NCBI GenBank assembly: GCA_024762935.1
Contig: JANTGK010000012.1
Coordinates: 1-35,981 of the forward strand
Source: Candidatus Peregrinibacteria bacterium
GTDB lineage: Bacteria; Patescibacteriota; Gracilibacteria; CAIRYL01; GCA-016699755
DNA: 35,981 bases
Direction of reading: 5' to 3'
In this document: piece by piece, positions 1 through 18,087 of the stretch
Layout of the letters: each line of letters opens with the position of its first letter
How positions within the stretch are numbered: the stretch's first letter is position 1
Made by a program: the position numbers and the translations under genes
The notes under the pieces: generated by a model
What the model saw: the letters and a program-made list of their open reading frames with translations, nothing else
What the model was told of the DNA's origin: nothing
Database searches by the model: none

Positions 1-237
1 AGTTAAACTCAGGGAAATCTTTGTTCCATATTTTTTTTTAATCTCATCAAAAAACCGACACCAATCTCCAAGGGATAATTCATCTGCGCATTGTTTTTGT
101 TGTGCACTCATATAACAATGTCGACAAGAGAGATTACACTTTTTGGTAATCTCCACAGTAATACTCTTCAAGCAATGTGCCTGCTTCTGCATACGGACAT
201 GCTCATCGAATGTTTTTGAAATAAGAGAGCCTAGCAT
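1..237 (-). CDS. Radical SAM protein, N-terminal part (cut by window edge)
   Basis: The first 79 codons of a gene that runs off the left edge. Residues 34-41 read CNLSCRHC, the CxxxCxxC triad that binds the 4Fe-4S cluster in radical SAM enzymes, followed by Y and M as is common in the family. The preceding segment (SITVEITKK) is the usual first beta strand of the barrel. The ATG at 237-235 lies over the TAG stop of the upstream small membrane protein gene (233-231), so translation is probably coupled. The gene is last in the visible part of a minus-strand operon with DUF389 and two small membrane proteins. The substrate cannot be told, because any C-terminal SPASM/Twitch or peptide-binding domain lies outside the window. 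The placement after small peptide-like membrane proteins resembles peptide-maturase arrangements, but that is inference. Confidence 0.85.
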   Translation of the reverse strand, partial: MLGSLISKTFDEHVRMQKQAHCLKSITVEITKKCNLSCRHCYMSAQQKQCADELSLGDWCRFFDEIKKKYGTKISLSLT

Positions 238-557
238 TCTTTATCCGAAATATTTTTTTTGATTTCTTGACCTCTTTGTTCAGCAATTTTCATTTTTTTT
301 CTTTTTATCCGGCTATAAATAAAGTATCCGACTGTTGGCAAGATAATAAGAAGAAAAACAAAGACAAGAAAAATTCTGTTTGAAAAAAAATAGACCCAGC
401 CGGGATATGGATCATACGCGGCTCCTCCTGATACTTGTATATCCCAATCCTCATCAGGAGGAAGGGAAAACGAAGCAAATGTCTTTTCTATAAAAACAAG
501 AACTGTCAAAAAGGAAAAAGTCATGTAGGTCTTGATTCTGAGGAATATTTGTTTCAT
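231..557 (-). CDS. Small membrane protein, paralogue B
   Basis: A 108-residue protein with no family I recognise. It has a basic N-terminus and a hydrophobic signal-like segment (about residues 12-30, containing SFLTVL), a short acidic and aromatic outer region (about 31-58), a strong membrane segment (about 60-80), and a lysine/arginine-rich cytoplasmic tail ending in KKNISDKEC. The topology is probably a cleaved or retained signal sequence, an outside loop, one membrane helix and a basic inner tail. It resembles the neighbouring 566-880 product in order and motifs: SFLTVL near the N-terminus, a GY-(F/L)-(I/F)-Y sequence at the end of the helix, and KKN-x-SD in the tail, so the two look like a tandem duplication. 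It starts 8 nt after that gene's stop, and its own stop overlaps the radical SAM start. Confidence 0.7.
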   Translation of the reverse strand: MKQIFLRIKTYMTFSFLTVLVFIEKTFASFSLPPDEDWDIQVSGGAAYDPYPGWVYFFSNRIFLVFVFLLIILPTVGYFIYSRIKRKKMKIAEQRGQEIKKNISDKEC

Positions 558-565
558 TTTTAATA

Positions 566-880
566 TTATACATTTTCTTTCTGATTCTCGTCAGAAGCAT
601 TCTTTTTCAATTGCTTTAATTCTCTTTTTTTTAAGGATTTTCTATAAAAAAGATATCCAATAATAGGAATGGCAAGAAAAAGAAATATTATTATATATCT
701 TGTATTTCTTAAAATTATCTGCGAAATACTCAGTGTTTCCTCCTCAGAAGGAAACATCATGCCACCATTTTCCAAAAAATCTGCTGAAACTTTATTTGTA
801 AATCCTTTTCCAAAGAAAAGAAGAACTGTGAGAAAACTTAATAGTACTTCTTGCCGTATCTTACCAAAAAAATTCTTCAT
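566..880 (-). CDS. Small membrane protein, paralogue A
   Basis: A 104-residue protein of unknown function. I chose the ATG at 880-878 because it overlaps the TGA of the DUF389 gene as ATGA and places a signal-like segment (SFLTVLLFF) right after the basic N-terminus; the open frame extends further upstream only across the DUF389 gene. The order is: N-terminal hydrophobic segment (about residues 11-26), short polar outer region with an acidic EEE patch, membrane segment (about 62-78, ending GYLFYRK), and a basic tail finishing with KKNASDENQKE. It shares this plan and several motifs with the 231-557 product. The ATGA junction and short spacing say it is co-translated with DUF389 and the downstream genes. 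Confidence 0.7.
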   Translation of the reverse strand: MKNFFGKIRQEVLLSFLTVLLFFGKGFTNKVSADFLENGGMMFPSEEETLSISQIILRNTRYIIIFLFLAIPIIGYLFYRKSLKKRELKQLKKNASDENQKENV

Positions 881-1617
881 TTCTTCACGGTAAAATTCTG
901 CTCTGTAATTTCTTTTTTTACCCGATGAAATCCAAGTCCTAAAAAGGCCAACACAGATCCAAGAATAATAAGAAGAAGATTCAGAGTAAAAGACATCGCA
1001 TATTCCTGCAAATCTAAGTACAGCCCCATCCCCAATAGAATTCCAAAAAAGCTCACAAAAGGAATGAGAGAAACAGCAATAGCCACTCCTATTAAATGAA
1101 GCTGTCCACCCATAGGACGGAGCCATGCGTATACACCTGAAAATCCTGATACAAATGCGGCGATAAGAAGAAAAGGATTATATTGTCTGAATTTTTCAGA
1201 GAACATAAGAATATCTATACTATGACCCGCTACGAGAAGAAGTTTTACAAATACTGCAGAAACAAAAATAACACAAAGGACACCTCCAAAAAAACTCTTC
1301 AAAGCATAAAAAATAAGTCTCCTATGAAAAAGTGAAACTCCTGCTGCAAGGGCTAGAACAGGATTTAAGATTGGTGCGAGTACCATAGCGGCAATAAGAA
1401 TAGCTGTATCGTTTAAAATAATCCCAAGTGTTGCCAAAAGGCTCGATAAACCACACATAACAAAGTATTCACCTCTCAGTCGTGAATTCTGAATAAGACT
1501 GTCTGCTGCCTCTTGGGCAGATTTATCACGTTCAAGATTCTCCCTCCAAACACGAATATTTGGTATTTTGATAAACCCTTTTAGGCTCCAATCTTTGGTA
1601 AAAAATGGGATTTTCAT
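877..1617 (-). CDS. DUF389 family membrane protein
   Basis: A 246-residue polytopic membrane protein of the DUF389 family. Visible hallmarks are the segment YFVMCGLSSLLATLGIIL followed by AAMVLAPILNPVLALAAG (about residues 51-94), which matches the family's LSA...IATLGL...GAMLIAPLMxPI signature, and a later SLIPFVSFFGILLG helix (about 184-197). About six membrane helices can be picked out, with a short soluble N-terminus rich in basic residues. The function of DUF389 proteins is not established. This is the first gene of the minus-strand operon and ends in an ATGA overlap with small membrane protein A. Length is on the short side because DUF389 proteins often carry an extra soluble domain, which is missing here. 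Confidence 0.85.
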   Translation of the reverse strand: MKIPFFTKDWSLKGFIKIPNIRVWRENLERDKSAQEAADSLIQNSRLRGEYFVMCGLSSLLATLGIILNDTAILIAAMVLAPILNPVLALAAGVSLFHRRLIFYALKSFFGGVLCVIFVSAVFVKLLLVAGHSIDILMFSEKFRQYNPFLLIAAFVSGFSGVYAWLRPMGGQLHLIGVAIAVSLIPFVSFFGILLGMGLYLDLQEYAMSFTLNLLLIILGSVLAFLGLGFHRVKKEITEQNFTVKK

Positions 1618-1670
1618 TCATTACATTTTACAATAATATAATGTATTTTGCAATTGTTCCTTGTTCCTTC

Positions 1671-1757
1671 ATCGTAATTTTTAATTCTTAATTCTTAATT
1701 TTTCTACGTTTCTTCTTTCTTCATCTTTAATTCTAATTCGTAATTGTTTATTGTTCC
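1671..1757. repeat. Degenerate heptanucleotide repeat array
   Basis: TTAATTC occurs at 1681-1687 and 1688-1694, followed by TTAATTT, then after a short pyrimidine stretch a second run with the same 7-nt period (TAATTCT, AATTCGT, AATTGTT, TATTGTT). It sits directly before copy 1 of the 36-bp hairpin repeat. No gene is visible between 1618 and 1847. Confidence 0.7.
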
Positions 1758-1758
1758 C

Positions 1759-1794
1759 TGCCTGCCCTTCGTAGCCTTGGCGAAGAAGGGTTCC
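1759..1794. repeat. 36-bp interspersed hairpin repeat, copy 1
   Basis: Identical over 36 bp to 18772-18807 and 19096-19131. It contains the inverted arms CCCTTC and GAAGGG (and, nested, CTTCG and CGAAG), so it can fold into a hairpin. On the minus strand it can be read as the peptide FFAKATKGRQG, which creates false open frames. It lies upstream of the thioredoxin-fold gene and downstream of a heptad array. Confidence 0.9.
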
Positions 1795-1847
1795 TTGAAT
1801 ATCTATACACAATAATATATAATTGTATAATACATTAAGATATATAC

Positions 1848-2906
1848 ATGCCTAAAAAACATAAAAAATTTCTTGAAACACCTCTTCCACAGTGGAGTGA
1901 AGTGCTTTTGATTGGGACACTGCTCATAATCAGCGTCAGTATCAACGTCTTAAACTTCATTAATCTCGAGAAGAATGTAAATACAAAAGGAGTAATGACA
2001 CCATCGTATGTCGAATCTCAGCTCCGTGCATCACTCAAAGAGAAAGAATTTATAAACAACAGGGTGTGGATAAAATTGCCAGATCCTCCCTTCGAAATAA
2101 TATCCATAACAGATCGTTCCTGTTCATCTTGTGCAGATCTATCCCTTACCCTTTCATACCTCGCAAAACGATTTCCAACAGCAACTCTAAGAAACGTAGA
2201 TATCTCTTCAAAAACAGGAAAAAAACTCGTCGAAAAAGGTATTCAGGAAGTACCTGTTATTTTATTTTCAGAACCTTTTCAGTATGTAGAAGGTGCAAAA
2301 GAAATGATGAAAACAGATGGAATAACAGCTCTTTCTCAAACATTTTTTCAAATGAAGGGAAATGGAAACAAAAAACTTCTCGACAGTGAAAATCTTCCCA
2401 CAACATATGAAATAAACAAAAAAGTGTCAGTAGTCATCTATGATCGTTTTTTGTCAGGAGATACAAAAAACTCATCCCTTATCGCATCAACACTCAACGA
2501 AAGCGTTAATAAAAATCTTATCTATGTTGAAAAGAGACCGATTATCCAAAATCCGATAGATTCCCTTCTTGCAGAAGCTATGGAATGCGGCGTAGAGCCC
2601 TCAAAAATAGTAAATATTCGTACACAACTCCAACAACAAATACGTGCATTTGTGGAAAATCCAGAAAAGCTCACCGAGTCCGAAATCAAAAAATCATCAA
2701 ATCTACTAAAAAAACTTCTTTCAATGGATAAAACACAGTCAGAGTGTTATACGAATCATACTTTTCAGAATAAAGTGCAAAGAACTGCTGCAGAAGCAGT
2801 TCGTATCGGGCTTACTACATTTCCATCATACGTGATTGGGCATGAACTCCTGATAGGAGATCAAAATATTGAAGATATACTCGATGCCATCAAGGAGCAG
2901 CAATAA
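1848..2906 (+). CDS. Membrane-anchored double thioredoxin-fold protein (CSSC)
   Basis: A 352-residue protein with an N-terminal membrane anchor (about residues 19-37) and an outward-facing body. Residues about 82-140 look like a thioredoxin/glutaredoxin fold: a beta strand leads into C92-S-S-C95, and EVPVILF (about 134-140) supplies the cis-proline. A second, DsbA-like segment at the C-terminus (about 323-350, FPSYVIGHELLIGD) has the usual end strands of a thioredoxin fold but no visible CxxC next to it. The likely role is thiol-disulfide exchange or disulfide isomerisation outside the membrane. A TATAAT box at 1826-1831 is a plausible -10 element but has no good -35. The gene converges on tyrS, with only 1 nt between their stops. 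Confidence 0.7.
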   Translation: MPKKHKKFLETPLPQWSEVLLIGTLLIISVSINVLNFINLEKNVNTKGVMTPSYVESQLRASLKEKEFINNRVWIKLPDPPFEIISITDRSCSSCADLSLTLSYLAKRFPTATLRNVDISSKTGKKLVEKGIQEVPVILFSEPFQYVEGAKEMMKTDGITALSQTFFQMKGNGNKKLLDSENLPTTYEINKKVSVVIYDRFLSGDTKNSSLIASTLNESVNKNLIYVEKRPIIQNPIDSLLAEAMECGVEPSKIVNIRTQLQQQIRAFVENPEKLTESEIKKSSNLLKKLLSMDKTQSECYTNHTFQNKVQRTAAEAVRIGLTTFPSYVIGHELLIGDQNIEDILDAIKEQQ

Positions 2907-16917: not shown

Positions 16918-18087
16918 TCAATCGAAGACGAACGAACTAAACGCCAAGAGTTCCATATTCGTCATCAAGAGAATTCCAAGTATTAAGAGAACAATTCCTC
17001 CAACGAGATGGGAAATCCTGATCATTTTTGGAGAAACTGTTGCAAATGAAAGGGTAAACATCGCAATAAGAAAAACGATGATATCATCGAGCATGTATGC
17101 AAAATCATAAATTCCTACAGCACTGAGCTGAGTAGGAAGGTTGAGATCCATCTGTAACAGAGTTGCCACAAAAGCAGTGGGAATGGCAAAACTACAGAGT
17201 AGCTCAATCGCATTTACAGAAAATGCAAGAGCGATGACTCCAGGCAAGATGATAAATAAATCCTCTTTCTTCAGAAGATTTGAAAGTTTTTTATGGAATT
17301 TCTGTTTTTCTCCTACATCACGCATCTCGCACTCAACTTTATTTTTGTAATAGGCATAAAAAGACATAAAAGCAGAAGCAATAGCCATAACTCCAACGAG
17401 GCGAAAGAGCCATATCATAACACCTCCACCCAAATATATGGTAATTTCTTGAAACCCAAAAAGGTATGCTAAAAGTGCCCCACCGTACAAAATACCACTT
17501 GAGGCCAAAAAAATACCACCAATAAGCCACCTCCTCCGCTTATCCTCCATGGTCATTAAGAATCCTAAAAGAACCAAAAGCGACCACATGGCACATGGAT
17601 TAAATCCATCAATGAGACCGAGAATAAAAGCCATAATTGGCCAAGAATAGCTCTTCAAATATTTTTTCCAAAATACTTCTTCTTCGCCAGAAAAAGATGT
17701 ATCTGAACTGCTATCACCACTGATAGACTGCACTGCTGCGAGAATATCAGCTTTTTTAAATCCAACAATGACGGACTCACCAATAATATTTGTTGGTACT
17801 CCTGTGGGAACCATATCAAATGCAGCCATTCGTTCTTTCCAAATATCTGCATTTTCAGTATTTTCCCACACCTCATGCTCCTGAATAATGAGATTCGGAA
17901 ACTGCTCTTTTAATTCAGGAAACCATTCTTTTTCTTTATGACAATGAGGGCAACTCGACCCATAAAAAAATTCAAGAATAGGTTTTTGAGTATCAAGATT
18001 CTCAGCAAAAACAGATTGTATTCCAAAAAATTGGAAGACAAAGAAAAAAGAGAAAAGTGTCGAAACGGTTACATATTTAATCCTCAT
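16918..18087 (-). CDS. Thioredoxin-CcdA/DsbD-like fusion, transmembrane thiol oxidoreductase
   Basis: A 389-residue fusion. A signal peptide (about residues 1-28) is followed by a glutaredoxin-like domain with CPHC at 46-49 and the cis-proline motif TGVPTN (about 95-100). The second half has about six membrane helices with the paired redox cysteines of CcdA/DsbD-type proteins: C165 in GFNPCAMW and C298 in NAIELLCSF. It probably carries electrons from cytoplasmic thioredoxin across the membrane to the outside CPHC domain. This is a one-polypeptide layout, with the sensor domain at the N-terminus. It converges on the 16470-16763 gene and could work with the CSSC protein at 1848-2906. Confidence 0.85.
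   Translation of the reverse strand: MRIKYVTVSTLFSFFFVFQFFGIQSVFAENLDTQKPILEFFYGSSCPHCHKEKEWFPELKEQFPNLIIQEHEVWENTENADIWKERMAAFDMVPTGVPTNIIGESVIVGFKKADILAAVQSISGDSSSDTSFSGEEEVFWKKYLKSYSWPIMAFILGLIDGFNPCAMWSLLVLLGFLMTMEDKRRRWLIGGIFLASSGILYGGALLAYLFGFQEITIYLGGGVMIWLFRLVGVMAIASAFMSFYAYYKNKVECEMRDVGEKQKFHKKLSNLLKKEDLFIILPGVIALAFSVNAIELLCSFAIPTAFVATLLQMDLNLPTQLSAVGIYDFAYMLDDIIVFLIAMFTLSFATVSPKMIRISHLVGGIVLLILGILLMTNMELLAFSSFVFD

Follow-up and report, generated by a model that had tools for sequence, protein, structure and literature searches.

Radical SAM enzymes with a SPASM domain mostly target peptides or proteins, and some of them, such as SkfB and CteB, carry N-terminal RRE domains. The closest described relative of the locus reported here is a gene pair of Bacteroidota and some Spirochaetota and Bacillota, in which an enzyme of the NCBIfam family TIGR04133 ('rSAM_w_lipo') is preceded directly by an exported, lipid-anchored small protein of family TIGR04134, without other modification genes. 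The pair has so far been only a hypothetical model. A 2011 paper reportedly proposed such radical SAM/peptide systems; in our literature search no paper naming TIGR04133 or TIGR04134 was found.

We analyzed a stretch of 35,981 nucleotides (the window) from Candidatus Peregrinibacteria bacterium, which constitutes the entire contig C12 of a genome of 82 contigs and 1.38 Mb. Its left end carries a four-gene operon on the minus strand, comprising, in order, DUF389, small membrane protein 1, small membrane protein 2 and a radical SAM gene:

877..1617, minus strand: DUF389 multi-pass membrane protein of 246 aa, opening the operon (PF04087, E 3e-18)
566..880, minus strand: small membrane protein 1, 104 aa (ORF and hydropathy; paralogue of small protein 2)
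231..557, minus strand: small membrane protein 2, 108 aa (ORF and hydropathy; AF2 helices)
1..237, minus strand: start of the radical SAM/SPASM gene, encoding the first 79 of 331 aa including CxxxCxxC (remainder on contig C28, L003:10076-10894, minus strand)
1618..1847, no strand: intergenic region up to a divergent thioredoxin-like gene, putative site of the operon promoter (gene layout)

DUF389 and small protein 1 are joined by an ATGA overlap (877-880), the two small proteins are separated by an 8-nt gap (558-565), and small protein 2 shares an ATGCTAG start/stop overlap with the radical SAM gene (231-237). A first-pass annotation of the sequence had described these four joined genes and their junctions, and the ORF coordinates reproduced them; its CxxxCxxC triad in the last gene is present as CNLSCRHC, and hydropathy agreed with the signal-plus-helix plan it had given for both small proteins. 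The RarA/MgsA ATPase gene downstream of the enzyme is convergent, so the operon terminates with the enzyme. The promoter is probably located in the intergenic region 1618..1847; promoter and terminator scans returned matches at chance level, the promoter-like ones in this region included. The divergent gene beside the operon (1848-2906, plus strand) encodes a Thioredoxin_4-domain protein that is membrane-anchored and carries a CSSC motif, and a further protein with a CPHC motif is encoded at 16918-18087 on the minus strand.

The first-pass annotation had proposed extending the assembly to the left and searching the full enzyme for SPASM and RRE domains. Positions 1-62 of the window are identical over 62 nt to the last bases of another contig of this genome, C28 (G000:C28:15834-15895), and matched nowhere else in the genome. 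Because this exact overlap joins two contigs, the left edge of the window is an assembly break and not the end of the gene. After joining, the enzyme has 331 aa and aligns with its homologues across the junction; Pfam models identified a radical SAM domain (PF04055, E 1.1e-18) and a SPASM domain (PF13186, E 1.1e-7). The radical SAM core starts at residue 26, and the roughly 25 aa that precede it leave no space for an RRE, unlike in SkfB and CteB. A scan of the enzyme, of the operon as a whole and of neighboring genes likewise gave no RRE or PqqD hit. Contig C28 also carries, close to its end (L003:7142-8771), a tandem pair of YbjQ_1 genes followed by an M48 peptidase gene.

The cysteines C34, C38 and C41 of the CxxxCxxC motif and the TGGE motif (T79-E82) were invariant in the alignment of the enzyme with its homologues. 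Of the seven SPASM-region cysteines of the TIGR04133 family, the enzyme keeps three (C259, C277 and C315), the other four columns being lost, and it has extra cysteines near this region (C247 and C251). Judged from this pattern, it seems likely that the enzyme holds at most one auxiliary cluster. By sequence profile the enzyme shares a fold family with SkfB, CteB, PqqE and anSME, although identity is low; a single-sequence search of the PDB gave SkfB as top match. The same kind of search in a collection of genome contigs returned no matches for the enzyme.

Among the NCBIfam models, TIGR04133 gave the best score for the full enzyme (173.8 bits, next best 128 bits), which is far below the curated cut-off of 425 bits. 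With a profile built without the window's protein, the enzyme reached 241 bits, compared to 424-557 bits for core members of the clade and at most 225 bits for all others. In a first tree it adjoined the TIGR04133 core clade (support 93/93). In a second tree, made with other long branches removed, the core clade plus the window's enzyme was supported at 98/95, with the window's enzyme sister to all core members (93/82). As it sits on a long branch, we call it sister to the clade rather than a member. The models for NirJ2, AhbD, viperin and MoaA all scored below TIGR04133, those of the heme type coming next. A heme or cofactor enzyme (NirJ, AhbD, MoaA) was rejected on the lower scores and the different clade. 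Bacterial viperins (pVip) resemble the enzyme in their radical SAM core (99 bits), but the NCBIfam viperin model scored only 84.5 bits against a cut-off of 180, below TIGR04133, and the enzyme has a SPASM remnant; a role in viperin defence was thus also rejected. With TIGR04133 as best model and a sister position to its clade, the enzyme does not belong to a known housekeeping radical SAM family; membership in such a family is what the first-pass annotation had named as speaking against its proposal.

The genes next to enzymes of the core clade follow a recurrent pattern. Of 24 core-clade loci, 17 had an ORF of up to 340 aa with the motif Y[GA].P upstream of the enzyme, compared to 2 of 121 radical SAM loci outside the clade (Fisher test, p 9e-15, a value that is descriptive only because the motif was defined after part of the loci had been seen). 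Among three plasmid matches seen later, L198 and L199, which also belong to the 24, have the motif, and L200 is without such an ORF. A small exported protein is usually encoded immediately upstream of the enzyme in homologous loci. In Bacteroidota, Spirochaetota and Bacillota these partners are lipoproteins with CYGTP, YGPP, YGMPP, YGSP and similar motifs, and in a Clostridium-like genome the partner is a two-TM protein with YGVP. Compared with TIGR04134, the partner lipoprotein of L099 scored above the cut-off and that of L092 just below it. Annotated plasmid records of Parabacteroides and Treponema name a 'radical SAM-associated putative lipoprotein' and 'TIGR04133', with the motifs YGSP and YGMP. 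Two or three YGxP copies occur in the partner lipoproteins L102:3582-3905, L089:3510-3962 and L087:3614-3856, as expected if the motif were a repeated modification site. Homologues of the enzyme thus adjoin small anchored proteins, and the earlier suggestion that the enzyme has its substrates or partners in the small proteins gained support from this recurrent adjacency and from the enzyme tree.

The plan found in the window (a signal or N-terminal helix, a short segment, one TM helix, a basic tail, then the enzyme) was found in three further candidate-phylum genomes, G516, G104 and G461. In G516, a 90-aa protein with VHA/MIIYAPPEV, a TM helix and a basic tail is followed by the enzyme. G104 belongs to the window's class, which includes genomes reading TGA as a residue and is therefore probably GTDB Gracilibacteria; with TGA read as glycine, G104 encodes a 99-aa protein with FYGCEGG, a TM helix and a basic tail, whose gene shares 59 nt with that of the enzyme. 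In G461, an open stretch PPEIGSIIF...TM...RKKQNVKRSAKKR overlaps the enzyme start with its end by 29 nt. A transposase gene lies directly before this remnant, just ahead of the PPE motif (L074:4595-5817), and the small gene of G461 therefore appears to be IS-interrupted; its radical SAM gene is left without a complete partner. As in the window, a single-TM, basic-tailed small protein thus lies directly upstream of a TIGR04133-type enzyme, and in G104 and G461 the two genes likewise overlap. In contrast to the window, these loci have one small protein and not two, the motifs YAPPE, PPE or YGCE, and no DUF389. The SPASM cysteine set is full in G461 and full but for the last in G516, unlike in the window's enzyme. 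In the tree, G104 and G461 fell inside the core clade and G516 formed a sister lineage with moderate support (90/80). For the small protein of G104, the resemblance to those of the window was seen in the plan, and the similarity of the window's small proteins to that of G516 was not significant, so what connects the window to the other loci is the enzyme tree, the order of the genes and the plan they have in common, and not partner homology. Larger searches around G516 and G461 yielded no further close members, and no close relative of the window's operon was found in 353 genomes of the class.

A point absent from the first-pass annotation is that the two small membrane proteins are paralogous: they share 30% identity by BLASTP (E 7e-10), and their Smith-Waterman score of 100 was not reached in any of 2000 segment-preserving shuffles, the highest of which scored 83. 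Both have a hydrophobic N-terminus, a short loop, a TM helix near residues 62-80 and a basic tail with KKNxSD. Small protein 1 combines a signal-like N-terminus with an acidic segment (GGMMFPSEEE), one TM helix and a tail ending in ...KKNASDEN. Small protein 2 has the segment FSLPPDEDWD just past a plausible signal cleavage site (TFA/SFS), a TM helix at about 62-82 and a tail ending in ...KKNISDKEC; AF2 placed helices at 2-31 and 53-107 around a disordered loop (32-49), in a model of low confidence (mean pLDDT only 64) that we used for helix boundaries only. FSLPP in small protein 2 is an aromatic-xx-Pro motif that may be due to chance, as we estimate that any such motif would occur in a protein of this length with a chance of about 8%; small protein 1 lacks such a motif, having no aromatic residue there. 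Small protein 1 matched no family at a curated cut-off, neither protein matched TIGR04134, and neither has a cysteine after the signal segment that could form a lipobox. A profile of the small proteins searched against the 353 class genomes returned only the window's own pair above noise, and a phage search with small protein 2 gave no match.

The closest homologues of the DUF389 protein (57% and 52%, in the class genomes G327 and G034) stand with unrelated genes, without a radical SAM gene or small protein beside them, and DUF389 was not seen adjoining the enzyme in the other loci inspected. DUF389 is therefore outside the conserved unit, and these neighborhoods rule it out as part of a conserved module. 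Probably co-transcribed with the operon, it is best read as a bystander or a lineage-specific addition. The first-pass annotation had asked whether DUF389, the small proteins and the enzyme stay together in relatives: the enzyme and a small anchored protein do, DUF389 does not. The idea that DUF389 could transport something for the system found no support, given that its closest homologues stand alone.

The link between the enzyme and the small membrane proteins is real, as supported by the clade-wide pairing, the candidate-phylum loci and the common plan of the paralogues. On balance, we favor the reading that the operon is a divergent, transmembrane and duplicated candidate-phylum variant of the TIGR04133/TIGR04134 pair of enzyme and anchored small protein. 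It differs from that pair in the low score and reduced SPASM domain of its enzyme, in having two paralogous, TM-anchored partners instead of a lipid-anchored one, in lacking canonical YGxP and in the presence of DUF389. That no described system has this layout, as had been stated earlier, therefore holds for the four genes together and not for the core of enzyme and small protein, which resembles TIGR04133/TIGR04134. The enzyme probably modifies both sister proteins as its putative substrates. Both would be produced just before the enzyme, which would carry out its SAM-radical modification in the cytosol, ahead of Sec export or while it proceeds. The modification may fall in the short post-signal segment, at Y[G/A]xP in relatives and at FSLPP in small protein 2. 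The modified segment would then be shown outside the membrane, anchored by the C-terminal TM helix, or by lipid in Bacteroidota, and the membrane protein DUF389 would be transcribed along with the pair but play no conserved part in it.

The small proteins might instead hold the enzyme at the membrane as its partners, docking or anchoring it by their basic cytosolic tails, its target lying elsewhere, for example in a membrane lipid or another exported protein. The KKNxSD tail is kept in both paralogues while the external segment diverges, and basic tails also occur in G516, G461 and G104; in the core clade, however, it is YGxP that stays constant, at times in several copies, and the proteins bearing it have neither TM helix nor basic tail, and the preference of SPASM enzymes for peptides and proteins also makes such a role rather unlikely. 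We give still less credit to a secreted RiPP system, in which the small proteins would be precursors that are first modified and then cleaved to release a bioactive peptide, DUF389 serving in export or immunity. A SPASM radical SAM enzyme does adjoin duplicated short hydrophobic proteins, but the operon has no RRE, peptidase or ABC exporter before the convergent RarA/MgsA gene, DUF389 is unlinked in relatives, and TM anchor and basic tail favor a retained membrane protein. It is equally improbable that a radical SAM enzyme with some other role, such as cofactor metabolism, came to lie behind unrelated small membrane proteins by chance. The lack of a close operon relative in the 353 class genomes and the second rank of the heme-type models would fit. 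Against it stand the start/stop overlap of small protein 2 with the enzyme, the three other candidate-phylum genomes with this arrangement and the pairing seen across the clade.

The recurrent Y[G/A]xP beside the enzyme in Bacteroidota, Bacillota, Spirochaetota and candidate phyla provides a concrete candidate target site. The window extends the idea to membrane-spanning partners and a reduced-SPASM enzyme, in bacteria with reduced genomes for which surface proteins are considered important in host attachment. More tentatively, the loci might reflect a widespread maturation of surface proteins by radical SAM modification at aromatic-x-x-Pro of membrane-anchored proteins. In candidate phyla its targets would then have shifted from lipoproteins to proteins with one TM helix, and in the window's lineage the auxiliary cluster site would have been largely lost and the substrate duplicated, which would imply a changed chemistry.

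Further radical SAM loci were noted in two other genomes. About ten different radical SAM genes lie within 15 kb in the candidate-phylum genome G669 (G669:C7:83000-98000, L078). In G603 (L076:1503-3068), a His/Ser/Cys-rich protein with a long HSQHSSCH repeat is encoded beside two radical SAM genes and looks like a RiPP-type or metal-binding substrate.
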